Both the position numbers and the translations under genes were made by a program. This document shows, piece after piece, positions 8,546-32,498 of a DNA stretch of 33,253 bases. The notes under the pieces were generated by a model. That model was not told the DNA's origin and made no database searches. It saw only the letters and a list, made by a program, of their open reading frames with translations. The stretch's first letter is position 1, and each line of letters starts with the position of its first letter. The stretch comes from a bacterium (GTDB taxonomy: Bacteria > Krumholzibacteriota > Krumholzibacteriia > LZORAL124-64-63), in NCBI GenBank assembly GCA_018829565.1, contig JAHJTW010000129.1, positions 1 through 33,253 on the forward strand, written 5' to 3'.

Positions 8546-8830
8546 TTACTTGAGAAGCATGGCCTTCCGGTGGTCCACCCTTCCGTCCGCCTCCAGCCGC
8601 AGGTAATAGGCTCCGCTGGGCAGGGGCCGGCCGGCGTCGTCGCGGCCCTGCCAGATGCGGCTGTGGGGTCCGGCGGGCAGGGCTTGGTCGACCAGCCCGG
8701 CCACCCGGCGGCCCGTGACGTCGTAGATCGTGATCCGGACCTGGCCGGGTTGGTCGAGTTCGAATCGCACCTCGGTCATGGGGTTGAATGGGTTGGGGAC
8801 GTTGGGCAACAAGCGAGTCATGACCGACGG
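8546..8830 (-). repeat. Near-identical 3' cassette shared with paralogue B (copy at 11779-12063)
   Basis: The DNA encoding the last 90 or so residues of paralogue C is almost the same as that of paralogue B, including one uninterrupted exact match of 102 bp (8687-8788 versus 11920-12021). Synonymous positions match throughout that stretch. The corresponding region of paralogue A (from 15665) is clearly diverged. This points to recent duplication or gene conversion confined to the 3' end. Confidence 0.85.
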
Positions 8831-11632: not shown

Positions 11633-11684
11633 GGTCTCCCCCTTGGAGCAATGCGGGCGCAGCGGACGTCGATGTCCGAGCATC

Positions 11685-11690
11685 ATTATA
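11685..11690 (-). promoter_or_regulatory. -10 element for paralogue C
   Basis: TATAAT read on the minus strand, followed by GATG, about 50 nt upstream of the start codon. It sits in an AT-rich patch that stands out in this genome. No good -35 is visible at 16-18 bp. A very similar TATAATGAT occurs ahead of paralogue B. Confidence 0.45.
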
Positions 11691-11718
11691 ATACCGGAAT
11701 TATCCTGATTTTGGGGTT

Positions 11719-11761
11719 GGAAATGAAACAAGCGGCCGCTCCCGATGTCGGGAGCGGCCGC
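11719..11761 (-). terminator. Intrinsic terminator of paralogue B
   Basis: A perfect 14-bp GC-rich inverted repeat (11732-11745 with 11748-11761) starts 17 nt after the paralogue B stop and is followed on the minus strand by TTGTTTCATTT. It separates paralogue B from the promoter of paralogue C, so the two appear to be independent transcripts. Confidence 0.75.
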
Positions 11762-11778
11762 AAGCTCATTCATGTCAA

Positions 11779-12063
11779 TTATTTAAGAAGCATCACCTTC
11801 CGGTGATCCACCCTTCCGTCCGCCTCGAGCCGCAGGTAATAGGCTCCGCTGGGCAGGGGCCGGCCGCTATCGTCGCGGCCCTGCCAGATGCGGCTGTGGG
11901 GGCCGGCGGGCAGGGCCTCGTCGACCAGCCCGGCCACCCGGCGGCCCGTGACGTCGTAGATCGTGATCCGGACCTGGCCGGGTTGGTCGAGTTCGAATCG
12001 CACCTCGGTCATGGGGTTGAAGGGGTTGGGGACGTTGGGCAGCAGGCGGGTCAGGGCCGCGGG
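11779..12063 (-). repeat. Near-identical 3' cassette shared with paralogue C (copy at 8546-8830)
   Basis: Partner of the 8546-8830 block. It encodes the FlgD-like C-terminal domain and contains the exact 102-bp match at 11920-12021. Identity falls off sharply upstream in the FN3-like and module 2 coding DNA. Confidence 0.85.
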
Positions 12064-15000: not shown

Positions 15001-15489
15001 AATCACGGTCTCCGGGTCCGCGCCGTCGAGGTAGGCCATGCTGCCCGGAATGGAGGCGTTGTACTTCGGCTCGAGGGAGATGGTGATCGGCAGGGGGCCC
15101 TCCACCAGGATCTGGAAGGTGGCCAGCAGGACGTTCTCGCCGGGAGGGAGCGGGGGTCCGCCGATCCCGACGGTGAAGCAGGGAGGGGGCGAGACGTTGA
15201 TGGTCTGTCCCTCGAGCGTCCAGCCGGAGAACTGTCCCGGACCCTCGATGTCCGCACAGAGCTCCCAGCCGCCCACGCCGGCGGCGGCGGAGGGGTTGTG
15301 CAAGACCAGGTAGCCCGTCACCAGGGAGGGGGCGACCACGTCGTTGAAGGTGGTTCGGGTAAACCCCGGATCCCAGTAGATGCCCACGACGTCGGTGCCG
15401 GGCTGGCCCCAGGCCGAGGTTCCCGATCCCAGGTATAACACGAACAGGGCGCAGATCAGCGCCCGGGTTCCTTGGTGGCTGGCGAACAT
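11779..15489 (-). CDS. Secreted ASH-repeat (choice-of-anchor-D type) surface protein, paralogue B
   Basis: The largest paralogue, 1236 residues. Signal peptide 1 to about 28 (ending SAWGQ); module 1 (about 33-182) with GVGGWELC and PPCFTVGIGGPPLP; seven ASH repeats (about 183-894, close to 102 residues each; examples begin ALDFGPVAVG, EVDFGLITTN and EVDFGNRVLG); module 2 (about 895-1050) with GVGGWEGC and PPCFMVGIGGAPLP; an FN3-like domain; and a FlgD-like C-terminal domain (about 1146-1236) nearly identical to that of paralogue C. Export is well supported; the role (surface fibre, adhesin or matrix scaffold) is inferred only from the all-beta repeat architecture. The start at 15489 is chosen by AAGGGGGA five nt upstream and by the signal peptide; a longer frame reaches an ATG at 15555, which overlaps the likely -10 element. 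It carries its own -10 element and terminator. Confidence 0.9.
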   Translation of the reverse strand: MFASHQGTRALICALFVLYLGSGTSAWGQPGTDVVGIYWDPGFTRTTFNDVVAPSLVTGYLVLHNPSAAAGVGGWELCADIEGPGQFSGWTLEGQTINVSPPPCFTVGIGGPPLPPGENVLLATFQILVEGPLPITISLEPKYNASIPGSMAYLDGADPETVIPLATTTGTPQVAWINDDVPVFEVSPSALGFWDTIIGEAQTKAVTVTNAGSVSLELDIALAGDCPGFSLPGVSGPLSLGGGESVQVLVRYEPQVEGHDYCTLVLGGVVPDVPLEGTARDPILDLRISPDALDFGPVAVGAQMNRSVTIQNFGEVPVTVTSSLDDATGAFGMLTSPGVYIIGVSQSLVVGISFVPPSVGDFTAILELGDQAGSVPLSGQGVDESAAEWTVTPEVDFGLITTNVTVSRNVVVDNVGIVPFVITASVVSPENVFVLDGGTTSLTLAPGMTYVARVDFTPAAAQPYSGFLDLGAVVGQVPLSGEGTFDIIRGEAPSSVSFAPVPVGQSAQETIAIRNTGTLPFTIDPVFMLGGEAFSIASGGGLFTLNPGMTRNLTLEFSPPLAQSYSALLVLGGPFQAIPVTGTGVPVSLSWTAPAEVDFGNRVLGSTTERSIIITNTGNSGFQVIPDIVVPSEFHPVSGFTARTLEAGASLELVVSYLPQTTGSVTGTLELGPVVPAITLLGEGRQPVTSFFLTPEELVLPPVAVGYPVTGKVTLANTGDTFIEVDPTLADETVFAIVMGGGVTVVAPGTSHQVQVQFESPDVGSFATLLSFGGVVPDVPVDATAEAPDPACSVEQFVNFGVVTLGWREQRYLTVTNSGNVPLSGTPVDPGCTYFGVDTSPIDLGPGQQALVSVTFQPLTEGSFNCTLDLGIGECGQVMLSGTGQSSGWGGSGENIAEVYWDPSYFSTSTSTNQYNQILTGYLVLSSPSDISGVGGWEGCLELDGDAEFMSWNIQGQNINVETPPCFMVGIGGAPLPFADHVLLATFQCLVPTPWSEVDVLIGPTRTPSIPGYSAWIPWADLDNEMPMQQFPGQVIIGVINSGLVGVEAPTPRASVTAGGVELTWQLADETGDRCHVYRRAGEGQTIRLTDAPLEAINGRFSFRDPAVGIEPGSVLHYSYAIVSGGTERARSPEVSVTLGGLPAALTRLLPNVPNPFNPMTEVRFELDQPGQVRITIYDVTGRRVAGLVDEALPAGPHSRIWQGRDDSGRPLPSGAYYLRLEADGRVDHRKVMLLK

Positions 15490-15553
15490 GGACTTCCCCC
15501 TTGTAGCCGATCCGCAATGGGGTAAGGACGGATCGAAATGAAAGATTTTGATC

Positions 15554-15559
15554 ATTATA
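15554..15559 (-). promoter_or_regulatory. -10 element for paralogue B
   Basis: TATAAT on the minus strand, preceded by TGC so that it forms an extended -10 (TGnTATAAT) and followed by GATC, about 65 nt before the start codon. Extended -10 promoters can work without a good -35, and none is seen here. Confidence 0.5.
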
Positions 15560-15600
15560 GCAAAAGAAAGGCACGCTTGGGAAGAGGACTGGGGAATTCA

Positions 15601-15638
15601 TTTCGCCAAAGCCAGCACCCGCGGCTGCGGGTGCTGGC
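15601..15638 (-). terminator. Terminator hairpin of paralogue A
   Basis: A perfect 12-bp stem (15611-15622 with 15627-15638) with a 4-nt loop lies 26 nt past the paralogue A stop codon and is followed on the minus strand by TTTGGCGAAA. It lies between the end of paralogue A and the promoter of paralogue B. Confidence 0.65.
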
Positions 15639-15664
15639 GGATGGTGCCGGCCGGCGGGAATCGC

Positions 15665-18475
15665 CTATTTCAAGAGCAGGACCTTGCGATGGTCCAGACG
15701 CCCGTTCATCTCCATCCTCACGTAGTAAGCCCCGCTGGGAACGGGCCGGCCCGTATCGTCGCGGCCCTGCCAGGCCTCCATGTGGGGGCCTGCGGTCACG
15801 ACCTGGTCCACGAGCGTCCTGACCAGACGGCCCGATACGTCGTAGATGGTGATGCGGGCATGTCCGGGTTCCCGGGCCTCGAAACGGATCTCCGTCAGGG
15901 GATTGAAGGGGTTGGGGACGTTGGGCAGCAACCGGGTCTGCAGCATGGGGACGCCGCTGAGCCGAACTGTGATTTCGGGACTGCGCTCCTGTTCACCCTC
16001 GGCTGCAAGCACAGCATAGCTGTAGTGGAGGGCGGCGCCCTCGGGGTATCCCGTCGCCTGGTCGCTGAACGAGAAGCTCCCGCCGGCGGCGGCAAGGGGC
16101 GCATCGGTCAGGCGGACTTCGGGTTCGCCGTCGGCTCGCCGGTAGACGTGGCACAGGGCGCCGGGACCATCGTCGATCTCCCACCTCAGATCCACACGTC
16201 CGCCGGCCACCGTCGCCCGGGGGGCGGGGTACTCGATCCCCACGATGGAGGGGTTGATGTGCCCGACCGGGATGAAACCTCCGGTGGGCTGCTGCATGGG
16301 GTACAGGATCTCCAGGTTGTCCCAGGCGATCCAGGCACTGGAACCCGGGATGGAGGCGTGGTAGATGGGACCGAGCAGGATGGTGGACTCCGTGTACGGC
16401 GTCGGCACCTCCATCTCGAAGGTGGCCAGGAGGATGGCCGGAGAATAGGGCAGGGGCGAGCCTCCGATGCCCACCAGGAAGCAGGGCGGATCCTGGACGT
16501 TGATGGTCAAACCCTCGAGGATCCAGTCGGTGAACACCGCGTCGCCGACCACGTCGAGGCAGCATTCCCAGCCCGCCACGCCGGAGGAGTTCTGGGCGTT
16601 CTTGAGGACGAGATACCCGGTGACGGTTTCCCCCACGGTCGAGGTGGAGATGTGGTCCTGAGTGAAGGCCGGATCGAAGAAGACACCCGCGAAGACGCCA
16701 TCGGGATCGATGTCGGCATCCACGGTGGCGGTCAGGTACACGCCGCCGCACACGCTCTGGCCGAGATCGACGGCGCAATCCCAGGAGCCGACGGCGTCGG
16801 CCTGGAAGTGGACGGGGATCGACCGGGATTCCTGGGGGTCAAGGGTGAAGGGGTTCGTGCTGACCGAGAAGTACTCGCAGCCATCGAGGGTGGGCACCAC
16901 GGTGAACGAAGCGTTCCCGCTGTTGGTCACCTGGATGTTGGCGTAGAGATCCTGGCCGAGTCCCGTGGTGCCCATGCCCAGGAGCCCTCCGTCGGGCGTC
17001 ACGCTGCACGCGAGGTAAGGGGCCTGGATGAACGCACGCAGCGGGACGGGATCGATTCCCGGCCCGAATACCAGCGAGGCCTCGAAGGATCCCGGTCCAG
17101 CCGAACCGTTGAACTCCACGGTGACCGTGTGGGAATGGAGAGGGTAAAGGAGCCGGGGGAAGTCGCCGGAGGTGATCACCCAATCCGACCCGCCGGGAAT
17201 GAGCACGGGGTCCAGGTTCAGGACGAGGTCGCCGTCGTTCGTGATGCGGACGGTGGCGCTGCGGGATTCGCCGGGGTCGAGGTCGGAGAAGACCACCGAG
17301 GTGGGCGTGATGACGTAGCTCTCGACCGGCTCGCGGCCCCTCCCGGCCAGGGGGACCGGAGCCATGACTCCGCCGAAGAGCAGGGTGTCAGCGAAGTCTC
17401 CGACCGCCGTGGGTTTGAAGTACACGGTGAAGGCCCGGGACCGGTTGGGATCCAGAACCACGGGATTGGGCGAGATGGAGAAGGAGAAGGGGCCGTTGCC
17501 GTCGGCCAGGGCGACCGGCACGGTCACCGGGAGCTCGCCCAGATTGTACAGTGATATGGTTTTCGAACGGGTCGCGTTGAGGGTGGTTTCGCCGAAATCG
17601 TACGACGCGGGATAGACGTAATGGTTGATGATCGGGTCCCGGCCTTGCCCCGCCAGGAACACCGGGGTCACGCCTTCGCCGAGATCCAGCTGGCACTCGA
17701 TGAGATCGTAGCCCTGGGGGTCGAAGGTGACGTCGATCGTCCGGCTCGATCCTCCGGGAACCTGGACGGGTCCGTTCAGGCCCGGCAGGGAAAAATCCGT
17801 GCATCCGGCCTGCAGAGCCACGTCGAGCAGGAGAAATCCCCCGCCCACGTTGCTCACGACGACCTGCTTGGTGACGGGCAACCCGATGGGCGTGTCGGTG
17901 AAGTTCAGGGAGCGGACGCTCACGTCGGGCACCGGGATGCTGCTGTTGACGAAGGCCACCTCGGGTACGCCGGTGACCGTGGTCATCGGGATGACGATCT
18001 CCGGATCGGCGCCGTCGAGGTAGGCCATGCTGCCGGGAATGGAGGCGAAGAACTTCGGTTTCAGACTCAGGGAGACCGGCAGGTACTCCGTCACCACCAT
18101 CTGGAAGGTGGCCAGCAGGACCGCCGACCCCCCGGGAAGAGGCGGACCCCCGATGCCCACGGTGAAGCAGGGTGGCTGGTCGGCATTGATCGTCTGTCCC
18201 TCGAGGACCCAGCTGAAGAACTCGGCTGGGCCGTCGATGTCGGCGCAGAGTTCCCACCCTCCGACTCCGGCCGCCGCCGAGGGCTCGAGCAGGACCAGGT
18301 ATCCGGTCACCAGGGCGGGCATGGTTTCGACGAGGAATTCGTTCTGGGTGTAGGCCTGGTCGAAGAAGATGCCGACCTGATCCTGACTCAGGGCTGGAAG
18401 GCAAGGGAAGAGGACGAAAAAAAGAGCGAGGGCCGCCGGCCGCAAGGCCGATCGGCGGCAGGAGATGGCGAACAT
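15665..18475 (-). CDS. Secreted ASH-repeat (choice-of-anchor-D type) surface protein, paralogue A
   Basis: The first gene of the tandem set in transcription order, 936 residues. Signal peptide 1-31 (hydrophobic core ALALFFVLFPCLPAL, ending SQ); module 1 (about 32-181) with GVGGWELC and PPCFTVGIGGPPLP; four ASH repeats (about 182-593, near 103 residues each); module 2 (about 594-745) with GVAGWECC and PPCFLVGIGGSPLP; an FN3-like domain (about 750-845) containing CHVYRRADGE; and a FlgD-like tail (about 846-936) from TRLLPNVPNPFNPLTEIRFE to VLLLK. Its C-terminal domain is visibly diverged from those of B and C, so it is the oldest branch or escaped their homogenisation. AAGGGGGA six nt upstream sets the start. 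A 6-bp hairpin (18494-18509) lies in the leader between the promoter and the ribosome-binding site. Confidence 0.9.
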   Translation of the reverse strand: MFAISCRRSALRPAALALFFVLFPCLPALSQDQVGIFFDQAYTQNEFLVETMPALVTGYLVLLEPSAAAGVGGWELCADIDGPAEFFSWVLEGQTINADQPPCFTVGIGGPPLPGGSAVLLATFQMVVTEYLPVSLSLKPKFFASIPGSMAYLDGADPEIVIPMTTVTGVPEVAFVNSSIPVPDVSVRSLNFTDTPIGLPVTKQVVVSNVGGGFLLLDVALQAGCTDFSLPGLNGPVQVPGGSSRTIDVTFDPQGYDLIECQLDLGEGVTPVFLAGQGRDPIINHYVYPASYDFGETTLNATRSKTISLYNLGELPVTVPVALADGNGPFSFSISPNPVVLDPNRSRAFTVYFKPTAVGDFADTLLFGGVMAPVPLAGRGREPVESYVITPTSVVFSDLDPGESRSATVRITNDGDLVLNLDPVLIPGGSDWVITSGDFPRLLYPLHSHTVTVEFNGSAGPGSFEASLVFGPGIDPVPLRAFIQAPYLACSVTPDGGLLGMGTTGLGQDLYANIQVTNSGNASFTVVPTLDGCEYFSVSTNPFTLDPQESRSIPVHFQADAVGSWDCAVDLGQSVCGGVYLTATVDADIDPDGVFAGVFFDPAFTQDHISTSTVGETVTGYLVLKNAQNSSGVAGWECCLDVVGDAVFTDWILEGLTINVQDPPCFLVGIGGSPLPYSPAILLATFEMEVPTPYTESTILLGPIYHASIPGSSAWIAWDNLEILYPMQQPTGGFIPVGHINPSIVGIEYPAPRATVAGGRVDLRWEIDDGPGALCHVYRRADGEPEVRLTDAPLAAAGGSFSFSDQATGYPEGAALHYSYAVLAAEGEQERSPEITVRLSGVPMLQTRLLPNVPNPFNPLTEIRFEAREPGHARITIYDVSGRLVRTLVDQVVTAGPHMEAWQGRDDTGRPVPSGAYYVRMEMNGRLDHRKVLLLK

Positions 18476-21982: not shown

Positions 21983-22050
21983 ACCGGGCCCCCTGATTGC
22001 CGAACCTAAAGCCAGGTGAACGATTCGGCTCGAGACCTGGTGGTGCCGGC

Positions 22051-23520
22051 ATGATGAACTCCGCGGACGTCTTCGCCCAGATCGAGAAGATGGGCGATCT
22101 GCCCAGCCTTCCCCAGACCCTGCTGCAGATCCAGACCGTGGCCGAGGATCAGAACAGCTGCGCGGACGATCTCGCCCAGTGCATCCTCAAGGACCAGGCG
22201 TTGACCATGCGGGTCCTGAAGGTGGTCAACAGCGCCATGTACAAGCGGGCCGGCGGCGAGGACGTGCGCACGGTGCGGCGGGCAGTGGTGGTCATCGGAT
22301 TCGAGACGGTGCGGAAGCTGGCCCTGGGCCTTTCGGTCTTCGACATGATGAGCAAGCTGTCCCGGTCGCCCTTCCTGGCCGAGATCGCCCGGCACTCGCT
22401 GATCACCGCGGGCTTCGCCCAGATCCTGGCCGAGGCCGGAGGCAAGGTCTCCCCCGAGGAGGCCTTCGTCTCCGCCCTGGTCCACGACATCGGCAAGGTC
22501 GTGCTCCTGGAATGTTCGCCTGAGGCCATGGATGCGGTGGTGAAGGACGTGCGGGCCGGGGCGTTGCCCCTGGAAGCCGAGCGCCGCCACTTCGGCATCA
22601 CCCACGACCGGGCGGGGCGCAGGCTGGCCGAGCAGTGGAATCTGCCCCGGGATCTGCACGCGGTCATCGGCGACCATCACGACATCGACCCGCTGTTTCC
22701 GCCCCGCAACCTGGAGCCCCGTCTGGGCGTGCTGGCCTTCGCCAACGCCATGAGCCGGTTCACCTGCCAGCCCCAGGAGCAGACCCAGGAGTACCGGATC
22801 ATCCGGCGGGCCGGCAAGGCCCTGGGCATTCCGGCGGCGCGCCTCGAGAGCATCTACCGCGAGGTGGGGGACCGCATCAGCGATCTGGCCGAACGGGTCG
22901 GCATCGACCTGGGCGACCTGCAGGACTACGGCCGCATCGTCAACGTCAAGGGCAGCGTCAACGTCGCCCCCAAGCGCATGACCCCGGAGGAGGTGGCCCG
23001 GCGCACGGCCGACCAGCTGGATCTCTACCGCCGGGTCGGCGCGGGCCTGGCCACCGGCCGCGATTCCTCGGACCTGCTCGGGATCATCATGGAAGGCGCC
23101 GTCCACATCCTGGGCTTCGAGCGGGTTGTCCTGCTGGGGGTGGACCGCAAGGCCCGGCGCTTCACGCCCCTGGCCTGGGCGGGGATCGAGGCCGGGGACC
23201 TGGCCGAACGGATGGCCTTCCCGGTGACCCGCCAGACGGGGGCCGTCGCCCTGGCCCTGATGGAGCACCGCAGCATCCACGTGCCGAAGGCGGCCAGCCC
23301 GGCCTACGGCGGTCTGGTCGGCGAGGAACTGATGGCCGCCGCCCGCTGCACCGGTTTCGCAGTGGCGCCGGTCCTGGGTCCGGGGGGTTCCCACGGGGTC
23401 CTTTACGCCGACTGCGGGGCCGGTGGCGACGACGTGGTCGCCGAGCAGGCGACCGAGCTGGCCGGCCTGGCCCAGCAGGCGGGGCTGGTGCTCGGGGCGG
23501 CGGAGCCGGTGCCGATCTAG
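22051..23520 (+). CDS. HDOD-GAF signalling/regulatory protein
   Basis: A 489-residue cytoplasmic regulator. The N-terminal HDOD domain (about 8-210) starts IEKMGDLPSLPQTLLQIQTVAED and contains the ALVHDIGKVVLL motif (H145, D146). HDOD proteins are mostly non-catalytic relatives of HD-domain phosphohydrolases, used as scaffolds in signalling and cell-cycle control. A central region (about 215-310) continues with a second helical segment. The C-terminal part (about 325-480) reads as a GAF domain (LLGIIMEGAVHILGFERVVLLGVD ... GFAVAPVLGPGGSHGVLYAD) that could bind a small ligand. The ribosome-binding site is weak. A TTG-initiated extension from 21997 is possible but unsupported. A small 6-bp hairpin (23520-23539) starts at the stop codon, directly before the histidine operon promoter. 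Confidence 0.88.
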   Translation: MMNSADVFAQIEKMGDLPSLPQTLLQIQTVAEDQNSCADDLAQCILKDQALTMRVLKVVNSAMYKRAGGEDVRTVRRAVVVIGFETVRKLALGLSVFDMMSKLSRSPFLAEIARHSLITAGFAQILAEAGGKVSPEEAFVSALVHDIGKVVLLECSPEAMDAVVKDVRAGALPLEAERRHFGITHDRAGRRLAEQWNLPRDLHAVIGDHHDIDPLFPPRNLEPRLGVLAFANAMSRFTCQPQEQTQEYRIIRRAGKALGIPAARLESIYREVGDRISDLAERVGIDLGDLQDYGRIVNVKGSVNVAPKRMTPEEVARRTADQLDLYRRVGAGLATGRDSSDLLGIIMEGAVHILGFERVVLLGVDRKARRFTPLAWAGIEAGDLAERMAFPVTRQTGAVALALMEHRSIHVPKAASPAYGGLVGEELMAAARCTGFAVAPVLGPGGSHGVLYADCGAGGDDVVAEQATELAGLAQQAGLVLGAAEPVPI

Positions 23521-23542
23521 GCATCCGCCCTGAGATGCCGGC

Positions 23543-23570
23543 TTGACATTCCCGAGGGTTTTCCTATCAT
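23543..23570 (+). promoter_or_regulatory. Sigma-70 promoter of the histidine operon
   Basis: A perfect -35 TTGACA (23543-23548) and a -10 TATCAT (23565-23570, five of six) are separated by 16 bp. It is the clearest promoter in the window. Transcription should start near 23577, 36 nt before the leader peptide ATG and about 245 nt before hisG. Confidence 0.8.
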
Positions 23571-23612
23571 CATCCGAAGCAGCGCAGTTTCGCGCCGCGG
23601 AAAAGGAACACG

Positions 23613-23684
23613 ATGAGTTTCCGTTCGCAGCATCATCACGGCCATCATCACCATCCCCGGTCCGGGGTTGGCTCGTTGGTCTAG
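23613..23684 (+). CDS. hisL: Histidine operon leader peptide
   Basis: A 23-codon ORF in the hisG leader: ATG at 23613, TAG at 23682-23684. Codons 7-14 encode HHHGHHHH, seven histidines in eight codons. AAAAGGAA at 23601-23608 is a well-placed ribosome-binding site. A His-rich short peptide between a strong promoter and the first his gene is the signature of ribosome-mediated attenuation as in enteric hisL: when charged tRNA-His is scarce the ribosome stalls on these codons and changes how the downstream RNA folds. The peptide itself probably has no function after synthesis. It lacks the uninterrupted seven-His run of E. coli and bears no other resemblance to it, so it looks independently evolved. 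Confidence 0.85.
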   Translation: MSFRSQHHHGHHHHPRSGVGSLV

Positions 23685-23750
23685 CTGCGACTGAATCCTT
23701 CATCGCCCAGACGACGAACGCCGGCCCTCGGGTCGGCTTTCTGCGTCTGG
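23655..23750 (+). promoter_or_regulatory. Histidine attenuator: alternative hairpins in the leader RNA
   Basis: Four segments can pair in the classical attenuator pattern. Segment 1 (CCCCGG, 23655-23660), directly after the His codons, can pair with segment 2 (within 23662-23672). Segment 2 GGGGTTGGC (23664-23672) can instead pair with segment 3 GCCGGCCCT (23720-23728), nine pairs of which three are G-U. Segment 3 GCCGGCC (23720-23726) can alternatively pair with segment 4 GGTCGGC (23731-23737), giving a 7-bp hairpin with loop CTCG followed by TTTCTG. An outer stem CCAGACG/CGTCTGG (23707-23713 with 23744-23750) may extend it. The U-tract is weak, so the mode of termination is uncertain. Confidence 0.6.
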
Positions 23751-23822
23751 TGGCCATGATGTCCTGATCCCACCACCGGCACCGAAGCCGATCCGCAGGC
23801 CGCAAGACGGACGGACGGTGCC

Positions 23823-24734
23823 ATGAAATCCGATTGCCAAGCGAGCATTGCACCCGAGCGGATCACCTTCCGCACGGGCGCCGATCTGCGCCTGGCCCTG
23901 CCCAAGGGCCGGATGCTCGAGGGGGTCCTGTCCTTGCTGGCGGGGGCCGGGATCCGGGTCCGGCAGGCCGAGCGGGACTACCGCGCCCTGTTCTCCCTGC
24001 CCGGGTGGGAGGTCAAGCTCCTCAAGCCCCAGAACATCGTCGAGATGCTGGACTCCGGGACCCGGGACCTGGGGTTCGCGGGAGCCGACTGGGTGGCCGA
24101 ACTCGGCGCCGACCTGGTGGAGGTCCTGGACACCGGGCTCGATCCGGTGAGCCTGGTGGCGGCGGCCCCGGCGGCCATCCTGGAGGATGGGGCCTTGCCG
24201 GTTCGGCCCCTGGTGGTGGCGACGGAATACGTCCGCCTCGGCTCGCGGTGGACCGAGACCCTGAGCCTTCCCGCCCGCCTGGTCCGCAGCTACGGAGCGA
24301 CCGAGGTCTTTCCGCCCGAGGACGCCGACTGCATCATCGACAACTCGGCCACCGGGTCCACCCTCAGGGCCAATGGTCTGGTCATCGTCCAGGAACTGTT
24401 GAAGAGCTCCACCCGGCTGTACGCCTCTCGCTGCGCCTGGGCGGATCCGGTCCGCAGGGGACGCATCGAGGAGCTGGCGATGCTGCTCTCGGCCGTCCTG
24501 GAGGCGCGCAACCGGGTCATGCTCGAGGTGAACATCCCGGCCGACCGGGTCGCCGAACTCGTGGCGATCCTGCCGTGCATGAGGGAGCCCACGCTCAGCC
24601 CCCTCAGCGGCCAGGGAGGTTTCGCCGTCAAGGCCGCGGTTCCGCGCAGCGAATTGCCCCTGGTCATTCCCCGCATCCGGCGCTGCGGGGGGACCGACAT
24701 CGTGGTGTCCGAACCCAGCCAGATCCTGCCATGA
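23823..24734 (+). CDS. hisG: ATP phosphoribosyltransferase, long form
   Basis: A 303-residue enzyme for the first, committed step of histidine synthesis, joining ATP and PRPP. About 20 extra residues precede the usual family start LRLALPKGRM. The catalytic part has SGTRDLGFAGADWV and the PRPP-binding region DADCIIDNSATGSTLRANGL. The last 75 or so residues (VMLEVNIPADRVAELVAILP ... FAVKAAVPRSELPLVIPRIRRCGGTDIVV) form the ACT-like regulatory domain of the long HisG type, which is feedback-inhibited by histidine and needs no HisZ. The operon is therefore probably controlled twice, by attenuation and by allostery. The ribosome-binding site is poor. The stop overlaps the hisC start (ATGA). Confidence 0.96.
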   Translation: MKSDCQASIAPERITFRTGADLRLALPKGRMLEGVLSLLAGAGIRVRQAERDYRALFSLPGWEVKLLKPQNIVEMLDSGTRDLGFAGADWVAELGADLVEVLDTGLDPVSLVAAAPAAILEDGALPVRPLVVATEYVRLGSRWTETLSLPARLVRSYGATEVFPPEDADCIIDNSATGSTLRANGLVIVQELLKSSTRLYASRCAWADPVRRGRIEELAMLLSAVLEARNRVMLEVNIPADRVAELVAILPCMREPTLSPLSGQGGFAVKAAVPRSELPLVIPRIRRCGGTDIVVSEPSQILP

Positions 24735-26440
24735 GGGGGCCGGGCCTGAACACCAAAGGCGTTTTCCCCTTAGCGGAGGGGACGTATCGCCGGGCGCCGG
24801 CGCCGGCGGGAGCGTTGCGGCTGGACGCCAACGAGGGCCCCGCTTCCGGGCGGACCTGGACGTGGCCCGATGCGGAGGCATTGCGGAGATATCCGGATGC
24901 ATCGTCCCTCGAACGGGAGATCGCCGGACGCTTCGGACTGGACCAGGCCCGGGTCCTGGTCACCGCCGGGGCGGACGACGCCATCGATCGGCTGTGCCGC
25001 AGATTCCTCGGACCCGGCCGGGATCTCGTGCTGAGCAAACCGACCTTCGAGATGTTCCTGCGTTACGCCGCCCTGGCGGGCGCAGAGGCGCGGAGCGTCC
25101 CGTGGTGGGACGGGCCCTATCCCGTCGAGGGCATCGCCGCGCTCTGCGGGCCCCGGACCGGCATGCTGGCGGTCGTCAGCCCCAACAATCCCACCGGAGG
25201 GACGGTCACCAGGACCGAACTGGTGGAACTGCGTCGTCGCTGCCCCGGGATCCCTCTGGTTCTCGACGCCGCCTATGCGGAGTACGCAACCGAGGATCTG
25301 ACGGCCAAGGCCCTGGACCTGGAGGACACGGTCGTTCTGCGCACCTTCAGCAAGGCCTGGGGCCTGGCCGCCCTGCGGGTGGGCTACGCCCTGGGTCCGG
25401 CGGATCTCATCGCGGAACTGCGGGCCTGCGGCCCTCCCTACGCGGTCAGCGGCCCGTCGCTGGCGCTGGCGGGCCAGGCCCTGGCCGCAGACGGACCGGG
25501 CATGAAGGCGGGGGTCGAGCGGACGCGCGCATACCGGGCCTCCATCGCCGGTCTCATGGGAGAACTGGGCCTCGAGGTCCTGCCGTCGCAAGCCAACTTC
25601 ATCCTGGCCCGCGACCCGCGGGCCGGCTGGATCACCGCCGCCCTGTCCGCGCTGGGATTCGTGGTGCGCGGCTGGCCGGGACACCCGTTGCTGGGGGATT
25701 GCCTGCGCGTGACCTGCCCCACCACGCCCGCGGACCAGGGGCGCTTCGCCCAGGCTCTGCAGACGGTCCTGGCCCCTGAGGCCCTGCTCCTGGACCTGGA
25801 CGGGGTGATCGCCGACGAGGGGGGATCCTACCGGGAGGCGATCCTCGCGGTCCTGGAATCCTTCGGGGTCCGGGCGAGCCGGCAGGACGTCGCGGCCGCC
25901 AAGGCCGCCGGATCGGCCGCCAACGACTGGGAGGTGACCTGCACCCTGCTGCGGCAGGCGGGCCTCGCGCCGGACAGGGACGAGGTCGTGGACCGGTTCC
26001 AGAGGGCTTACCTCGGTGGGGACGGGACGCCCGGCCTCTGCGAGCGGGAGACCCTGATCCCACCACGATGGGTGATCGAGGACCTGGCCCGCCGGCTGCC
26101 CCTGGGGATCGTCACCGGCCGGCCCCGGGCCGAGGCGCTCGCGTTCCTCGACCGCTTCGACCTGTCCTGCCTCTTCGGGGTGGTCGTCGGCATGGAGGAC
26201 GCCCCCGCCAAGCCCGATCCCGCTCCCGTGCGCCTGGCTCTCCGGCGGCTCGGCGCCCAGCGGGCCTGGATGGTGGGGGACACCCCCGACGACGTGCGGG
26301 CCGCCAGGGCGGCCGGCGTCCTGCCCCTGGCCGTCCGTCCTCCCGATCCTCGCGACGCCCCGGGCGAAGACGCTCTCGTCGAGGCGGGCGCCGCCTGCAT
26401 CCTTTCCAACCTGACCGGACTGAGGGAGTTGCTGAAATGA
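24731..26440 (+). CDS. hisC: Histidinol-phosphate aminotransferase fused to a HAD phosphatase (probable histidinol-phosphatase)
   Basis: A 569-residue fusion. Residues 1 to about 348 are a class I/II PLP aminotransferase of the HisC type: LRLDANEGP, SPNNPTGGTV, LDAAYAEYA and the PLP lysine K208 in TFSKAWGLAALRVGYALG. Residues about 350-569 are a HAD subfamily-IA phosphatase: nucleophile and acid in LLLDLDGVIAD (D355, D357), the threonine motif in LGIVTGRPRAEA, the lysine in KPDPAPVRLAL and the acidic motif MVGDTPDDVRAARAAG. HisC makes L-histidinol phosphate and the next step needs a histidinol-phosphatase. The HisB here lacks its phosphatase half and no other phosphatase gene is in the operon, so the HAD domain most likely supplies that activity. 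The reading frame is continuous through the junction. It overlaps hisG and hisB by ATGA. Confidence 0.93.
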   Translation: MRGPGLNTKGVFPLAEGTYRRAPAPAGALRLDANEGPASGRTWTWPDAEALRRYPDASSLEREIAGRFGLDQARVLVTAGADDAIDRLCRRFLGPGRDLVLSKPTFEMFLRYAALAGAEARSVPWWDGPYPVEGIAALCGPRTGMLAVVSPNNPTGGTVTRTELVELRRRCPGIPLVLDAAYAEYATEDLTAKALDLEDTVVLRTFSKAWGLAALRVGYALGPADLIAELRACGPPYAVSGPSLALAGQALAADGPGMKAGVERTRAYRASIAGLMGELGLEVLPSQANFILARDPRAGWITAALSALGFVVRGWPGHPLLGDCLRVTCPTTPADQGRFAQALQTVLAPEALLLDLDGVIADEGGSYREAILAVLESFGVRASRQDVAAAKAAGSAANDWEVTCTLLRQAGLAPDRDEVVDRFQRAYLGGDGTPGLCERETLIPPRWVIEDLARRLPLGIVTGRPRAEALAFLDRFDLSCLFGVVVGMEDAPAKPDPAPVRLALRRLGAQRAWMVGDTPDDVRAARAAGVLPLAVRPPDPRDAPGEDALVEAGAACILSNLTGLRELLK

Positions 26441-27039
26441 GCTGCGGAAACGGGGTTTTCCGGCGCGCCGAGGTGCGCCGCACGACGACGGAGACGGACG
26501 TCGGCGTCCGCCTGGACCTGGACGGAACCGGGATCGCCACGGTGACCACCGGGCTAGGATTCCTGGACCACATGCTGATCAGCCTGGCGAGGCATGCCCG
26601 GTTCGATCTGGACCTGGAATGCAAGGGGGATCTTCAGGTCGACGACCACCACACCGTGGAGGACTGCGCCCTCGTCCTGGGCCGGGCCCTCCTGGATTCC
26701 CGCGGCGACGGCGCCGGCATCGCCCGCTTCGGGGAGGCGCGGGTGCCCATGGACGATGCCCTGGCCGTCGCCGCCGTCGACCTGGGCGGACGGCCGTTCG
26801 CCCAGGTCGATCTGGACCTGCGCCGGGACCGCCTCGGGGAGGTGGCCTGCGAGAACCTGACCCACTTCATGGGTTCCCTGGCCCAGGCCGGGGCCTTCAA
26901 CCTGCACCTGGACGTCCTGCGCGGGGTGAACGACCACCACAAGGCCGAGGCTGCCTTCAAGGCTTTGGCGGTGGCCCTGCGCCGGGCATTGCGACGCGAC
27001 GGAGGCGACACCGTCCCCAGCACCAAGGGAGTCCTGTGA
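26437..27039 (+). CDS. hisB: Imidazoleglycerol-phosphate dehydratase (monofunctional)
   Basis: A 200-residue enzyme for the sixth step, dehydrating imidazoleglycerol phosphate to imidazole-acetol phosphate. The manganese-binding histidine/glutamate motifs are intact: GLGFLDHMLISLARHA, DDHHTVEDCALVLGRAL, VACENLTHFMGSLA and NDHHKAEAAFKALAVALRRAL, with the usual C-terminal PSTKGVL. The length is that of the monofunctional enzyme, without the N-terminal histidinol-phosphatase of enterobacterial HisB, in line with a separate HAD domain on HisC. The start overlaps the hisC stop (ATGA), and the stop shares one base with the hisH start (TGATG). Confidence 0.97.
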   Translation: MSCGNGVFRRAEVRRTTTETDVGVRLDLDGTGIATVTTGLGFLDHMLISLARHARFDLDLECKGDLQVDDHHTVEDCALVLGRALLDSRGDGAGIARFGEARVPMDDALAVAAVDLGGRPFAQVDLDLRRDRLGEVACENLTHFMGSLAQAGAFNLHLDVLRGVNDHHKAEAAFKALAVALRRALRRDGGDTVPSTKGVL

Positions 27040-27665
27040 TGCGAGACGTGATGATCATCGACACCGGGCTGGCCAACGTCCGCTCGGTCCAGGCGGCTCT
27101 CGAACGGGTGGGAGCGAGACCCCGCCGCGTCTCCCAGCCGTTCGAGATAGCCGCCGCGGAGTTCGTGGTGTTGCCGGGAGTGGGAGCGTTCGGCCCGGCC
27201 ATGGCCGAGTTGCACCGCCTGGGCCTGGCCGCTCCCCTGAGGCTGCGGGCCCTGTCCGGAGGCCCGCTCCTGGGAGTCTGTCTGGGAATGCAGCTGCTCT
27301 GCGAAGGCAGCGACGAAATGCCCGGTGTGCGCGGCCTGGCGGTTCTTCCGGTTCGCGTCGCCCGGCTGCCGGCCGGGATCCGCGCGCCTCACATGGGCTG
27401 GACGCTGGTGTCCGGAGGGGACAGGCCGAGTCACGCGTACTTCGCTCATTCCTTCGCCGTCGCGGGGGAGGATGCCGGGCGCCTGGCCGTCTCGGGCTGG
27501 CAGGTCATGACCGCCGGCCACCCGCGTCCCTTCGTGGCGGGGGTGCAACGGGGCGACGTCCTGGCCTGCCAGTTCCACCCCGAACTCTCCGGCGACTGGG
27601 GCCAGGATCTCCTGGACGCCTGGCTGAATGGGCGGACGCAGGAGGTGGCGGCATGCCTGCAGTGA
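27039..27665 (+). CDS. hisH: Imidazole glycerol phosphate synthase, glutamine amidotransferase subunit
   Basis: A 208-residue class I glutamine amidotransferase that supplies ammonia to HisF. The triad is visible: nucleophile C81 in GVCLGMQLL, and H180 and E182 in CQFHPELSG. The start MIIDTGLANVRSVQAALERVG and the oxyanion strand VLPGVGAFGPAM match HisH. HMGWTLV is the conserved region near the interface. It begins one base into the hisB stop and overlaps hisF by 13 nt. GGAGG at 27641-27645, inside hisH, serves hisF. The long overlap should keep the two partners of the heterodimer in equal amounts. Confidence 0.96.
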   Translation: MRDVMIIDTGLANVRSVQAALERVGARPRRVSQPFEIAAAEFVVLPGVGAFGPAMAELHRLGLAAPLRLRALSGGPLLGVCLGMQLLCEGSDEMPGVRGLAVLPVRVARLPAGIRAPHMGWTLVSGGDRPSHAYFAHSFAVAGEDAGRLAVSGWQVMTAGHPRPFVAGVQRGDVLACQFHPELSGDWGQDLLDAWLNGRTQEVAACLQ

Positions 27666-28408
27666 GGATCATCCCGTGCCTGGACGTGCGCGACGGCCGC
27701 GTCGTCAAGGGCGTGCGTTTCCAGGACTTGCGGGACATGGGGGAACCGGCGGTCCAGGCCGCGGCCTACGCGGACCAGGGGGCGGATGAGATCGTGATGC
27801 TGGACGTGACGGCCACCCTGCAGGGGCGTCTGGCTCGGCTGCGGACGGTCGGCCAGGTTCGACGGCGGCTGAACATCCCGCTGACGGTGGGGGGAGGGGT
27901 GGGGGACGCCGCCGAGGCGCGGCGCCTGCTGGAAAACGGCGCGGACAAGGTGGCGGTCAACAGCGCGGCGATCGGTCGGCCGGGCCTGTTGACCGAACTG
28001 GCCGACCTGTTCGGACGCCAGTGCGTGGTCCTGGCCATCGACGGCCGGCGCGACCCGCAGGGACGTCCTCTGGTCCTGAGCCGGTCGGGCAGCAGGCAGG
28101 AAGACCTGGATGTCCCGGCCTGGGCCCGGCGGGGGGTGGCGCTGGGAGCCGGCGAGATCCTGCTGACCAGCTGGGACCGTGACGGCACCGGTGCGGGCTA
28201 CGACCTGGACCTGCTGGCCGAGGTGCGCGCCGCGGTGGACGTGCCGATCATCGCTTCCGGCGGAGCGGCCGATCCGGGGCACATGGCCGCGGCCGCCAAG
28301 GCGGGTGCGGACGCGGTGCTGGCCGCCACCATCTTCCACGACGGGTCCTGGACCGTCGGCGGGATCAAGCAGGAACTGGCGCAGAGGGGACTGGAGGTGC
28401 GGTCATGA
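27653..28408 (+). CDS. hisF: Imidazole glycerol phosphate synthase, cyclase subunit
   Basis: A 251-residue TIM-barrel cyclase that uses ammonia from HisH to make imidazoleglycerol phosphate plus AICAR. The catalytic aspartates are D11 (IIPCLDVRDGRVVKGVRF) and D130 (VLAIDGRR). Phosphate-binding motifs are LTVGGGVGD, ADKVAVNSAA, LLTSWDRDGTGAGYD and IIASGGAADPGHM. The family usually has TSMDRDGT; here W replaces M, a minor change. It overlaps hisH by 13 nt and hisA by ATGA. Confidence 0.97.
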   Translation: MPAVRIIPCLDVRDGRVVKGVRFQDLRDMGEPAVQAAAYADQGADEIVMLDVTATLQGRLARLRTVGQVRRRLNIPLTVGGGVGDAAEARRLLENGADKVAVNSAAIGRPGLLTELADLFGRQCVVLAIDGRRDPQGRPLVLSRSGSRQEDLDVPAWARRGVALGAGEILLTSWDRDGTGAGYDLDLLAEVRAAVDVPIIASGGAADPGHMAAAAKAGADAVLAATIFHDGSWTVGGIKQELAQRGLEVRS

Positions 28409-29676
28409 TGATTCCCTCGATCGATCTGCAGGGCGGACGAACGGTCCAGCTGGTCGGCGGCCGGGATCTGGCCCTGGCGGCCGGCGATCCGGCGCCCTGG
28501 GCCCGCCGCTTCGGGCGCGTGGGGGAGATCGCCGTGATCGATCTCGATGCGGCCCTGGGCGAGGGGGGGAACGCCGACCTGATCGCAGGCCTGCTGGATC
28601 TGGCGCCCTGCCGGGTCGGGGGCGGCATCCGGTCGGCCGACATGGCCCGCCGCTGGCTGGACCTCGGCGCGGCCAGGGTCATCATCGGAACCGCCGCGGA
28701 TCCCGCACTCCTGCGGCAGCTTCCTCCCGAGCGTGTGATCGTCGCCCTGGACGCCCGCGACAAGGATGTGGTGGTCGAGGGATGGACGAAGCGGACCGGC
28801 AGGCGCGTGGCCGACCGCATGGCCGAGCTGGCCGGACTGGCCGGCGGCTTCCTGGTGACCAGCGTCGAGCGTGAAGGGCGCATGGTGGGCGCGGACCTCG
28901 AGTGGGCCGCCTCCCTGCAGAAGGCGGCCGGCGGAGCGCGCCTGACATTCGCCGGGGGGGTGAGCAACAGCGATGAAATCGCCGCGCTGGACGATCTCGG
29001 CATCGACGTCCAGGTCGGCATGGCCCTCTACACGGGGGCCTTCACCCTGGCCGAGGGCTTCCTGGCTCCCCTGCGGGCCCGGGATCCCCGGGGACCCTGG
29101 CCCACCGTGGTCTGCGACGAGGCGGGATCGGCCCTAGGGCTGGTCTGGTCCACCCTGGAAAGCGTGACGCAGGCCCTGGACACCGGCCGGGGCGTCTACC
29201 ATTCCCGGCGACGCGGGCTGTGGGTCAAGGGGCAGGAGAGCGGCAACACCCAGGAGCTGCTGGCCATGGACCTGGACTGCGACCGCGACGCCCTGCGCGT
29301 CCGGGTGCGCCAGCGCGGGGACGGCTTCTGCCACACCGGCAGCTGGACCTGCTGGGGCCCCGGAACGGGGCTTCAGGCCCTCGAACGGACCGTGCACGCC
29401 CGGCTGCAGGACGCGCCGGCGGGATCCTACACCCGGAGGTTGTTCGAGGACGGGGACCTGCTGACCGCCAAGCTGAAGGAGGAGGCGGCCGAACTCGCCG
29501 CCGCCCGGGAGCCCGCCCACGCGGCCGCCGAAGCGGCCGACCTGATCTACTTCACGCAGGTGGCCCTGGCGCGGGCCGGGGCCTCCTGGGCCGATGTGGC
29601 GGGGGTCCTGGACGGCAGGGCCAGGCAGGTGACGCGGCGTCCCGGTGACGCCAAACCCGAAGGATGGCAACCATGA
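28405..29676 (+). CDS. hisA: Trifunctional HisA-HisI-HisE fusion
   Basis: A 423-residue protein carrying three histidine enzymes in one frame. Residues 1 to about 228 are the HisA isomerase barrel: SIDLQGG (D7), AVIDLDAALGEGGNADLI, RVGGGIRSADM, VALDARD (D116) and FAGGVSNSDEI. Residues about 232-320 are HisI, phosphoribosyl-AMP cyclohydrolase: VYHSRRRGLWVKGQESGNTQ, the metal site DCDRD (291-295) and the zinc cysteines in CHTGSWTC (C309, C316). Residues about 330-420 are HisE, phosphoribosyl-ATP pyrophosphatase: ARLQDAPAGSYTRRLFEDGD, LKEEAAEL and EAADLIYF. Together they perform steps 2, 3 and 4, in reverse order along the chain. HisIE fusions are common; fusing HisIE onto HisA is unusual. It overlaps hisF and hisD by ATGA. 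Confidence 0.94.
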   Translation: MMIPSIDLQGGRTVQLVGGRDLALAAGDPAPWARRFGRVGEIAVIDLDAALGEGGNADLIAGLLDLAPCRVGGGIRSADMARRWLDLGAARVIIGTAADPALLRQLPPERVIVALDARDKDVVVEGWTKRTGRRVADRMAELAGLAGGFLVTSVEREGRMVGADLEWAASLQKAAGGARLTFAGGVSNSDEIAALDDLGIDVQVGMALYTGAFTLAEGFLAPLRARDPRGPWPTVVCDEAGSALGLVWSTLESVTQALDTGRGVYHSRRRGLWVKGQESGNTQELLAMDLDCDRDALRVRVRQRGDGFCHTGSWTCWGPGTGLQALERTVHARLQDAPAGSYTRRLFEDGDLLTAKLKEEAAELAAAREPAHAAAEAADLIYFTQVALARAGASWADVAGVLDGRARQVTRRPGDAKPEGWQP

Positions 29677-30959
29677 ATCCCGACCGCTTCACCCTGCGCC
29701 GCAGGAATGCCGGCGAGGTGTCCGGAACGCCGGCGGAGCCCCTGGCTGCGGAGGTCCTCGAGGGGGCCGGGGCCATCGTTGCCGAGGTCGCAGCAGGTGG
29801 GGATGCGGCTCTCGAACGCCTTGCTCGCCGCTTCGACGGCAAGGACCCGGATGCGCCGCTGGTCCACGGCCGCGAGGCCCTGGCTGCGGCGCTGGACGGC
29901 CTCGAACCTGCGGTTCGGGGGTTGCTCGAACGGGTTGCCGGACGCATCGCGTCCTTCGCCGCGGCCCAGCGGGCCTCGCTGCGGCCGGTGGTGACGGAGG
30001 TGCCGGGGGGGCGGGCCGGCCACGATCTGATCCCCGTGGACGCCGCCGGATGCTACGCCCCCGGCGGCCGGCATCGCTTGCCCTCGTCGGTCCTGATGAC
30101 GGTGGTCACCGCCCGCGCGGCGGGGGTGCCCACGGTCATCGCCTGCTGTCCCCGGCCCGATCCGGTGGTCCTGGCGGCCGCGGCGATCGCGGGGGCCGAT
30201 TCCCTGGTGGCCGCCGGGGGAGCCCACGCCATCGGGGCCCTTGCCCACGGCACCGGTTCGGTGCCCGCGTGCCAGGCCATCGTCGGTCCCGGCAACGTCT
30301 GGGTGACCGCCGCCAAGCGGATCGTGTCTCCCCGGGTGCGGACCGATGGGGAAGCGGGACCGTCCGAGCTGGTCGTGGTGGTGGACGCCCGGTGCGATCC
30401 AGAACTGGTGGCGGCCGACCTGATCGCCCAGGCCGAACACGATGTCCTGGCGCGCACGGTCCTGGTGTCGCTCGACGAAACCCTGATCCTTCGCGTGGAG
30501 GAGTCGCTCGCCCGCCGGCTGGATGGTTTGCCGACGGCGGCAACGGCGCGGGCGGCTCTGGCCGGGGGGTTCGCGGTCCTGGTCGGGGATCAGTGCGAGG
30601 CGGTGGAACTGTGCAATCGCCTCGCGCCCGAGCACCTGCAATGGATGGCCGCCGGCGGACGGAGGCCCGCCGGCCTGCGCCACTACGGGGGATTGTTCCT
30701 GGGGGCCGGGGCGGCCGAGGTCCTGGGCGATTACGGCGCGGGGCCGAACCACGTCCTGCCCACGGCCGGGCAGGCGCGGTTGCGGGGCGGGCTGAGCGTC
30801 CTGGACTTCCTGAAGGTCCAGACCTGGCTGCAGGTGGACGACCCCGGCGCGTCGGCAGGACTGGCGGAGGACGCCCGTGATCTGGCTCGCCTGGAGGGCC
30901 TGGAGGGACATGCCCGGGCGGCCGGGCTGCGGATCCCGGCCTTTCGCCGCCGGGCCTGA
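29673..30959 (+). CDS. hisD: Histidinol dehydrogenase
   Basis: A 428-residue NAD-dependent zinc enzyme that oxidises histidinol to histidine in two steps. Family landmarks: GCYAPGGRHRLPSSVLMTVVTARAAGV, AGADSLVAAGGAHAIGALAHGT, IVGPGNVWVTAAKR, GPSELVVV, LIAQAEHD (metal and base residues), NRLAPEHLQ and GAGAAEVLGDYGAGPNHVLPT with a following GGLSVLDFLK. The start is placed at 29673, where ATGA overlaps the preceding gene; an ATG at 29664 in the same frame would add three residues. AAGGATGG upstream serves either. It is the last his gene. No terminator is visible in the 60 bp before proS. Confidence 0.97.
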   Translation: MNPDRFTLRRRNAGEVSGTPAEPLAAEVLEGAGAIVAEVAAGGDAALERLARRFDGKDPDAPLVHGREALAAALDGLEPAVRGLLERVAGRIASFAAAQRASLRPVVTEVPGGRAGHDLIPVDAAGCYAPGGRHRLPSSVLMTVVTARAAGVPTVIACCPRPDPVVLAAAAIAGADSLVAAGGAHAIGALAHGTGSVPACQAIVGPGNVWVTAAKRIVSPRVRTDGEAGPSELVVVVDARCDPELVAADLIAQAEHDVLARTVLVSLDETLILRVEESLARRLDGLPTAATARAALAGGFAVLVGDQCEAVELCNRLAPEHLQWMAAGGRRPAGLRHYGGLFLGAGAAEVLGDYGAGPNHVLPTAGQARLRGGLSVLDFLKVQTWLQVDDPGASAGLAEDARDLARLEGLEGHARAAGLRIPAFRRRA

Positions 30960-31019
30960 AATGCTATCTTGCCTCACCACCGATTCGGCGAGGGACCCCG
31001 GGCAGAGGAAGGATTCGGC

Positions 31020-32498
31020 ATGGCCGAGATCACCAAGCGTTCCGACGATTACAGCCGCTGGTACCAGGACGTCATCCAGGCCGCGGAGCTGGCCGAGAAC
31101 AGCCCCGTGCGCGGCTGCATGGTCATCCGGCCCAACGGCTACGCCATCTGGGAAAACATCCAGCGCACCCTGGACGACAGGTTCAAGGAGCTGGGGCACG
31201 TCAACGCCTACTTCCCGCTGCTGATCCCCAAGAGCTTCCTGGCCAAGGAGGCCGAGCACGTCGAGGGGTTCGCCAAGGAGTGCGCGATCGTCACGCACCA
31301 CCGGCTCAAGCAGGTGACGGTGAACGGCAAGACCACCGTCGTTCCCGATCCGGAGAGCAAGCTGGAGGAGGAGTACGTCATCCGCCCCACCAGCGAGACG
31401 GTGATCTGGGACCAGTACCGCAAGTGGATCCAGAGCTACCGTGACCTGCCGATCCTGATCAACCAGTGGGCCAACGTGATGCGCTGGGAGATGCGCACGC
31501 GCATGTTCCTGCGCACGACCGAATTCCTCTGGCAGGAGGGCCACACCGCCCACGCCACCGCCGAGGAAGGCCGCGCAGAGACCCTTCAGATGCTCGAGGT
31601 CTACCGCTGGTTCGCCGAGGACATCCTGGCCATGCCTGTGGTCTGCGGCGCGAAGACGGCCAACGAGCGGTTCGCCGGCGCCGTGGAGACGTACTCCATC
31701 GAGGCCATGATGCAGGACCGCAAGGCCCTGCAGGCCGGCACCAGCCACGACCTGGGCCAGAACTTCGCCAAGGCCTTCGACGTCACCTACCAGGACGCCG
31801 AGGGCAAGGTCGAGCACGTCTGGGCCACCAGCTGGGGGATGAGCACGCGCATCATCGGCGCCTTGATCATGACCCACAGCGACGACAACGGGCTGGTCCT
31901 GCCCCCGAGGATCGCGCGCACCAAGGCCGTGATCGTGCCCATCTGGAAGAACGACGAGGAGATGGCGGCCGTCTGCGCCGCCGCCGACAGGATCGCCGCC
32001 GACCTCAAGGCGTCCGTGGGGCTCATCCACGTGGACAAGCGGGACAAGATGCGCCCGGGCTGGAAGTACGCCGAATGGGAGCAGAAGGGCGTTCCCGTGC
32101 GTCTGGAACTGGGTCCCCGCGACCTGGCCGAAGGGCAGGTCATGATGGCGGCCCGCCACGACCGCGCCAAGAATCCGGTGAAGTTCGCTGATCTGGGAAC
32201 CGCACTGCCCGCCGAGCTGGAACGGATCCAGGCCGACCTGTTCGCCGCCGCGGTGAAGCGCCGCGAGGAGGCCACGGTGAACGTCGACACCTGGGACGAA
32301 TTCGTGAAGCTGTACGAGGGGGAGGGCGGTTTCGCCCACTGCCACTGGTGCGGCGACGGGGACTGCGAGAAGGCCATCCAGGAGAAGACCAAGGTGACCA
32401 TCCGCAACCTCCCGTTCGAACGGGACGAGACCGTCGGGACCTGCGTCCACTGCGGGGAGAAGTCCATCGGCAGGGTGCTGTTCGCGCAGTCCTACTAG
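31020..32498 (+). CDS. proS: Prolyl-tRNA synthetase, archaeal/eukaryotic-like (type 3)
   Basis: A 492-residue class II aminoacyl-tRNA synthetase charging tRNA-Pro. It is of the short type without the bacterial editing insertion: [29 protein letters not shown] and [26 protein letters not shown] contain motif 2, and [24 protein letters not shown] motif 3. An anticodon-binding domain (about 290-400) and a C-terminal zinc domain with CHWCGDGDC and [10 protein letters not shown] follow. The protein ends in the invariant tyrosine of this class (FAQSY). AGGAAGG before 31020 and the conserved [19 protein letters not shown] set the start. The gap to hisD is 60 bp with a weak TGCTATCTT -10-like element, so it may be read from the his operon, from its own promoter, or both. 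Confidence 0.97.

Follow-up and report, generated by a model that had tools for sequence, protein, structure and literature searches.

The region preceding hisG in the window, the whole 33,253-nucleotide stretch of DNA that was analysed, very probably carries a ribosome-mediated attenuator that governs the his operon by sensing charged histidyl-tRNA. A predicted ORF with the tandem codons HHHGHHHH, of the kind that define a leader-peptide attenuator, lies before the full his operon and is conserved. The sequence itself supports the leader and the alternative pairings, as well as their conservation and the linkage to hisG. The promoter, ribosome-binding site, 23-codon HHHGHHHH ORF and mutually exclusive pairings described in an earlier note on this DNA could each be read in front of hisG, with slightly shifted coordinates, and were assigned as follows:

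23543-23570, forward strand: sigma-70-type promoter TTGACA-N16-TATCAT (TTGACA at 23543-23548; TATCAT ends at 23570).
23601-23608, forward strand: AAAAGGAA, the Shine-Dalgarno site serving the leader ORF (anti-SD duplex, -5.6 kcal/mol).
23613-23684, forward strand: predicted leader peptide ORF MSFRSQHHHGHHHHPRSGVGSLV, 23 codons plus TAG (ATG at 23613; TAG at 23682-23684).
23631-23654, forward strand: sensor codons HHHGHHHH (seven His codons, at 23631-23639 and 23643-23654).
23651-23659, forward strand: arm 1, overlapping the last His codons and pairing with 23663-23671.
23664-23672, forward strand: arm 2, GGGGTTGGC, 5' arm of the antiterminator, within the leader ORF.
23720-23728, forward strand: arm 3, GCCGGCCCT, common to antiterminator and terminator.
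23731-23742, forward strand: 3' side of the terminator, arm 4 (GGTCGGC, 23731-23737) and a short U-tract (TTTCT, 23738-23742).

The TTGACA-N16-TATCAT sequence was the single promoter-like site found by the promoter scan within 23480-23900 (11/12 matches; shuffles, 0.1), and transcription is predicted to start at about 23577. A TTGAC(A) box occupied the equivalent position at the related loci L008, L010, L005 and L007 (reverse strand) and at most of the leader loci. In the 1:2 pairing, CCCCG (23655-23659) was matched with CGGGG (23663-23667), and CCA/TGG extended the stem into the His codons. The 2:3 pairing joined GGGGTTGGC (23664-23672) to GCCGGCCCT (23720-23728), while the 3:4 pairing joined GCCGGCC (23720-23726) to GGTCGGC (23731-23737), followed by TTTCT. 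An outer stem, 23707-23713/23744-23750, was able to lengthen the terminator hairpin in the fold, and the leader RNA folded 4 SD more stably than its own shuffles.

In the proposed mechanism, a ribosome would translate the 23-codon leader behind RNA polymerase. If His-tRNA were short, the ribosome would stall at HHHGHHHH, covering arm 1 and leaving arm 2 free to capture arm 3 before arm 4 had been made, so that the terminator would not form and hisG through hisD would be transcribed. If histidine were plentiful, the ribosome would reach the Pro and Arg codons and the stop, covering arm 2, and arm 3 would then pair with arm 4, ending transcription upstream of hisG. We infer both the ribosome stalling and the termination in vivo.

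The set of loci used for comparison consisted of the 80 best HisG loci in a scan over GTDB species together with members of the phylum, 83 rows in all, and a His-rich leader was present in 42 of them. At least six His per 10 residues were encoded within the 300 nt upstream of hisG in 32/78 regions, compared with 0/5,484 control segments and 0/78 on the opposite strand of the same upstream regions. The His codons, whose loss from related leaders the earlier note had named as a point against its proposal, are thus retained. The leader bearers belonged to nine phyla, as labelled in their database records, in which some MAG labels may be wrong: Krumholzibacteriota, Planctomycetota, Spirochaetota, Acidobacteriota, Gemmatimonadota, Actinomycetota (Acidimicrobiia), Armatimonadota, Myxococcota and Sumerlaeota. 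The leader was absent from about 20 pseudomonadotal, mostly alphaproteobacterial, loci in the HisG set. All five of the hisG-bearing genomes among the 80 Krumholzibacteriota genomes examined had a His-rich leader, and those at L008 and L010 were nearly identical to that of the window in spite of different flanks. The closest named relative of the window HisG came from a Candidatus Krumholzibacteriia MAG, and Krumholzibacteriia is an FCB lineage in established taxonomy. This supports the suggestion that the histidine leader peptide and attenuator of the window belong to an FCB candidate phylum and not to the Proteobacteria.

Pairing tests were carried out on the 39 loci with a clear hairpin, L040, L044 and L078 being excluded because their terminators were unclear. 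The leader tail, taken from the last His codon to 10 nt beyond the stop and including arm 2, outpaired the spacer for arm 3 in 39/39 loci; the distance from the stop to arm 3 was 19-47 nt. Compared with dinucleotide shuffles of the leader tail, the arm 2:arm 3 pairing had a mean z of -1.92 and reached p<0.05 in 22/39 loci. Cognate arms gave -20.2 kcal/mol on average and swapped arms -17.6 kcal/mol (6.6 SD, p 2e-4, 5000 permutations), a significance that is somewhat inflated by near relatives because swapping preserves base composition but not relatedness. A compensating change was seen in L019 and L086, where arm 3 has AACCGG for ACGCCGG and arm 2 has TT for CG, and the terminator stem had changes on both sides at 6/9 pairs (35 sequences). 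Compensatory changes of this sort, the lack of which would have counted against the earlier note, were thus found in both structures, and the antiterminator (2:3) and the terminator (3:4) are mutually exclusive and conserved through them. In the window alone, the 2:3 pairing had a z of -1.26 against shuffles (p 0.10). The 1:2 pairing had a z of -2.1 in the window, -2.7 in L008 and -1.9 in L010, and was weak over the whole family (mean z -0.84).

Two further pairings were considered. The earlier note had proposed that ATGATG (23756-23761) pairs with the CATCAT of the His codons; ATGATG is present in the window, but L008, L010 and L007 (reverse strand) lack it at the equivalent position, and this long-range pairing was rejected. 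The start region of the leader, 23611-23617, can pair with the spacer at 23698-23705 (CGATGA/TTCATCG), and L008 and L010 have a similar pairing with one base pair changed. Cognate segments of this second pairing surpassed swapped ones (p 0.002) but were no better than shuffles (mean z -0.30); it perhaps limits re-initiation on the leader.

The switch was modelled by a ribosome scan in which the 5' side was masked as far as 15 nt beyond the A-site codon's first base, on a transcript ending before arm 4. In the window, the probability that upstream RNA captured arm 3 was 0.99-1.0 for each of His codons one to six and 0.85 for the seventh; past the His codons it was 0.57 with the ribosome at Pro and 0.08 with it at Arg, and 0.16-0.50 from there to the stop. 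Mean capture over the 39 loci was 0.79 at the first His codon, 0.59 at the last and 0.43 at the stop, and in 24/39 loci pairing of arm 3 dropped by more than 0.1 between the last His codon and the stop; some of this fall would be expected anyway, since less of the RNA is left free. In the folding model, then, a ribosome on the control codons would free arm 2 and a ribosome at the stop would mask it. When arm 4 was present, the 3:4 hairpin was favoured at equilibrium, in the window with either ribosome position and overall in nearly all cases, and consequently the switch has to be kinetic. Classical attenuators are likewise kinetic switches.

The least certain step of the attenuator reading is intrinsic termination. 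The best 8 nt had three or four T in all five Krumholzibacteriota copies (four in the window), compared with at least five T in 31/34 others, and a simple terminator scan found no U-rich terminator at the window leader. The weak U-tract common to the five copies is what lends weight to an alternative in which the same His-sensing leader acts in this lineage through Rho or through hisG translation instead of intrinsic termination. The hisG Shine-Dalgarno region of the window also pairs with upstream RNA (z -2.7), in a GGCACC..GGTGCC hairpin able to cover the site. However, such pairing is not general, with a mean z of -0.54, 6/35 loci below -1.64, and values of -0.3 in L008 and -0.9 in L010. 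Moreover, TTTCTCGTGA, the U-tract of the hairpin that follows proS in the window, is about as short, and U-poor tails may therefore be normal terminators in this host. An output through Rho or translation is accordingly considered unlikely. Immediately before the hisG ATG, at 23778-23822, the window has the hairpin GGCACCG..CGGTGCC, and L010 has one too, both conspicuous on inspection; as a family feature, a hairpin hiding the hisG Shine-Dalgarno site was rejected, being non-significant across the 35 loci. That the whole arrangement is a coincidence, a short histidine ORF in GC-rich intergenic DNA accompanied by fortuitous hairpins, is scarcely credible. Hairpins do form readily in GC-rich DNA, and the 2:3 pairing of the window would not by itself exclude chance, but the frequency of His-rich leaders relative to the control segments, their clustering on the HisG tree and their conservation across nine phyla contradict it, as do the arm 2:arm 3 pairing, the two-sided changes in the terminator stem, the codon-resolved switch and the near identity of the L008 and L010 leaders amid differing flanks.

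The leader precedes a his operon set between an HDOD-domain gene and proS:

21997-23520, forward strand: HDOD-domain gene, left flank (PF08668).
23823-24734, forward strand: hisG, long form with the HisG_C domain (Pfam PF01634, PF08029).
24731-26440, forward strand: hisC fused in one frame to a HAD hydrolase, a candidate histidinol-phosphate phosphatase (PF00155 with PF00702/PF13419).
26548-27039, forward strand: hisB (PF00475; IGPD domain at 26548-26979, start codon approximate).
27039-27665, forward strand: hisH (PF00117).
27653-28408, forward strand: hisF (PF00977).
28405-29676, forward strand: hisA-hisI-hisE fusion in one frame (PF00977, PF01502, PF01503).
29664-30959, forward strand: hisD, last gene of the operon (PF00815).
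31020-32498, forward strand: proS, right flank (relatives' start, MAEITKRS).

The histidine pathway is complete if the HAD domain fused to hisC is the histidinol-phosphate phosphatase, its presumed role. Elsewhere in the window, the minus strand of 8546-18475 encodes three large proteins that resemble one another and have sorting-domain-like tails of the NVPNPFNP..ITIYDVTGR type.

The operon is rare in the phylum. A protein search found hisG in 5/80 Krumholzibacteriota genomes and hisB in 4/80, and a Pfam HMM found hisG in 5/58 phylum genomes, with controls positive in 13/14; in one genome, G024, contigs break inside hisG. Among good genomes the count was 4/46, and incompleteness accounts for only part of the absence. 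The 75/80 genomes without hisG and 76/80 without hisB suggest that the usual route to histidine is missing from most of the phylum. The genomes G001 and G002, which are of the same genus and have no his genes, have only about 90 bp between the HDOD gene and proS; at this place the window carries the promoter, leader and his operon (7.4 kb), with junctions at 23520-23543 and 30959-31020. By sequence reading, the upstream gene is DinB-like in G004, NAD-binding SDR-like in G028 and TetR-like in G024. The presence of the leader was clustered on the HisG tree, requiring 9 changes compared with 27.8 in shuffles (0/500 as low), and a near-identical hairpin, ACGCCGGCC..GGYCGGCGT, preceded hisG in the nine phyla. 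Copies of this hairpin numbered 0-2 in each genome and lay chiefly at the his leader; a generic terminator was therefore rejected as its source. A first HisG tree placed the Krumholzibacteriota rows apart from one another, but the AU test did not reject a single Krumholzibacteriota HisG clade (p-AU 0.61), and the phylum may have acquired the operon once or several times.

The clustering on the HisG tree, the shared hairpin and the patchy, differing sites together favour common descent and transfer with the operon over an independent origin; as most of the phylum lacks the his operon, it is likelier that the attenuator was transferred along with it. The attenuator family thus appears, from these comparisons, to move with the his operon, and we infer transfer rather than loss in Krumholzibacteriota. 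The earlier note had raised the possibility of an independently evolved case, a view that did not hold up against the same architecture in nine phyla. Leader peptides, which are short, may evolve afresh, and such an origin was proposed for Firmicutes (PMC2965389); nevertheless, convergence in Krumholzibacteriota is very improbable given that the shared hairpin is otherwise nearly absent from these genomes, that leader presence tracks HisG phylogeny, and that the operon is patchy in the phylum with differing gene neighbourhoods. An operon and attenuator ancestral to the phylum and lost by the 75 other genomes would fit the frequent loss of amino acid pathways and the compatibility of the HisG tree with one clade. 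This history is rather doubtful: every case examined had a different upstream gene (HDOD, DinB-like, NAD-binding SDR-like and TetR-like), and related genera that lack his genes have the HDOD gene right next to proS.

In 35/42 loci the best sigma-70-like -10 box ended 6-11 nt upstream of the leader start codon, a spacing found for 82% of leaders and 12% of random ATGs or, when a strong promoter score was also required, 49% and 0.3%, respectively. Transcripts are therefore predicted to begin at or near the leader AUG, and most His leader ORFs outside Krumholzibacteriota look to have leaderless mRNAs. The exceptions were the window, L008, L010 and L005, in which the -10 box is 42-52 nt from the ATG and a Shine-Dalgarno site is present; the 5' UTR of the window copy is about 36 nt.

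Taken together, the data may reveal a hitherto undescribed histidine attenuator family, a proposal for and against which we find the balance about even: it would be characterised by the ACGCCGGCC hairpin and by an antiterminator arm spanning the stop codon, would occur in at least nine non-proteobacterial phyla, would travel from phylum to phylum in a single cassette that includes the his operon, and would in most hosts have a leaderless leader-peptide mRNA, the Krumholzibacteriota copies having mostly gained a 5' UTR and Shine-Dalgarno site and lost the U-tract. If a homologous attenuator is indeed present in nine other phyla, this regulation is widespread and can be inherited or transferred with the operon, not reinvented each time. 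The leaderless prediction is testable, in that transcription should start at the AUG of the sensor peptide, and the conserved hairpin provides a landmark by which histidine regulation can be annotated in those uncultured phyla for which Rfam currently gives no match.

Most descriptions of leader-peptide attenuation come from Proteobacteria, and further cases have been predicted in Actinobacteria and Firmicutes. The present attenuator is classical in its logic, lies outside RF00514 and belongs to a wider, seemingly undescribed family; no description of this family was found in the openly licensed literature. Neither RF00514 nor any credible Rfam family matched the window even at E 10, the window had no T-box RNA match, and there was no gathering-level Rfam match in 20 related loci. 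Like gammaproteobacterial hisL (RF00514, His_leader), the window has a His-rich leader peptide, an exclusive antiterminator and terminator and a ribosome-stalling logic, directly before hisG, but its family has a different sequence, a conserved ACGCCGGCC hairpin and no covariance-model match. Histidine attenuators have been predicted in gammaproteobacteria and several Firmicutes lineages (PMC9413887, PMC2965389, PMC4833913), and PMC4833913 refers to a search in Actinobacteria. The Firmicutes His leader peptides (B. cereus group, Peptostreptococcaceae, Erysipelotrichales; PMC9413887, PMC2965389) are likewise comparative-genomics predictions of His attenuation outside Proteobacteria, but they occur in other phyla and have partly different targets (hisZ, hisS). 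The Corynebacterium glutamicum ilvBNC attenuator (PMC11857589) is a leader-peptide attenuator that has been discussed together with leaderless mRNA translation, but it responds to branched-chain amino acids and belongs to Actinomycetota. In Sinorhizobium meliloti trpL, the leader ORF's own ATG is where rnTrpL begins (PMC7298713), a leaderless arrangement like that predicted for most family members outside Krumholzibacteriota, whereas tryptophan is the amino acid sensed there and the window copy has a 5' UTR of about 36 nt and a Shine-Dalgarno site.
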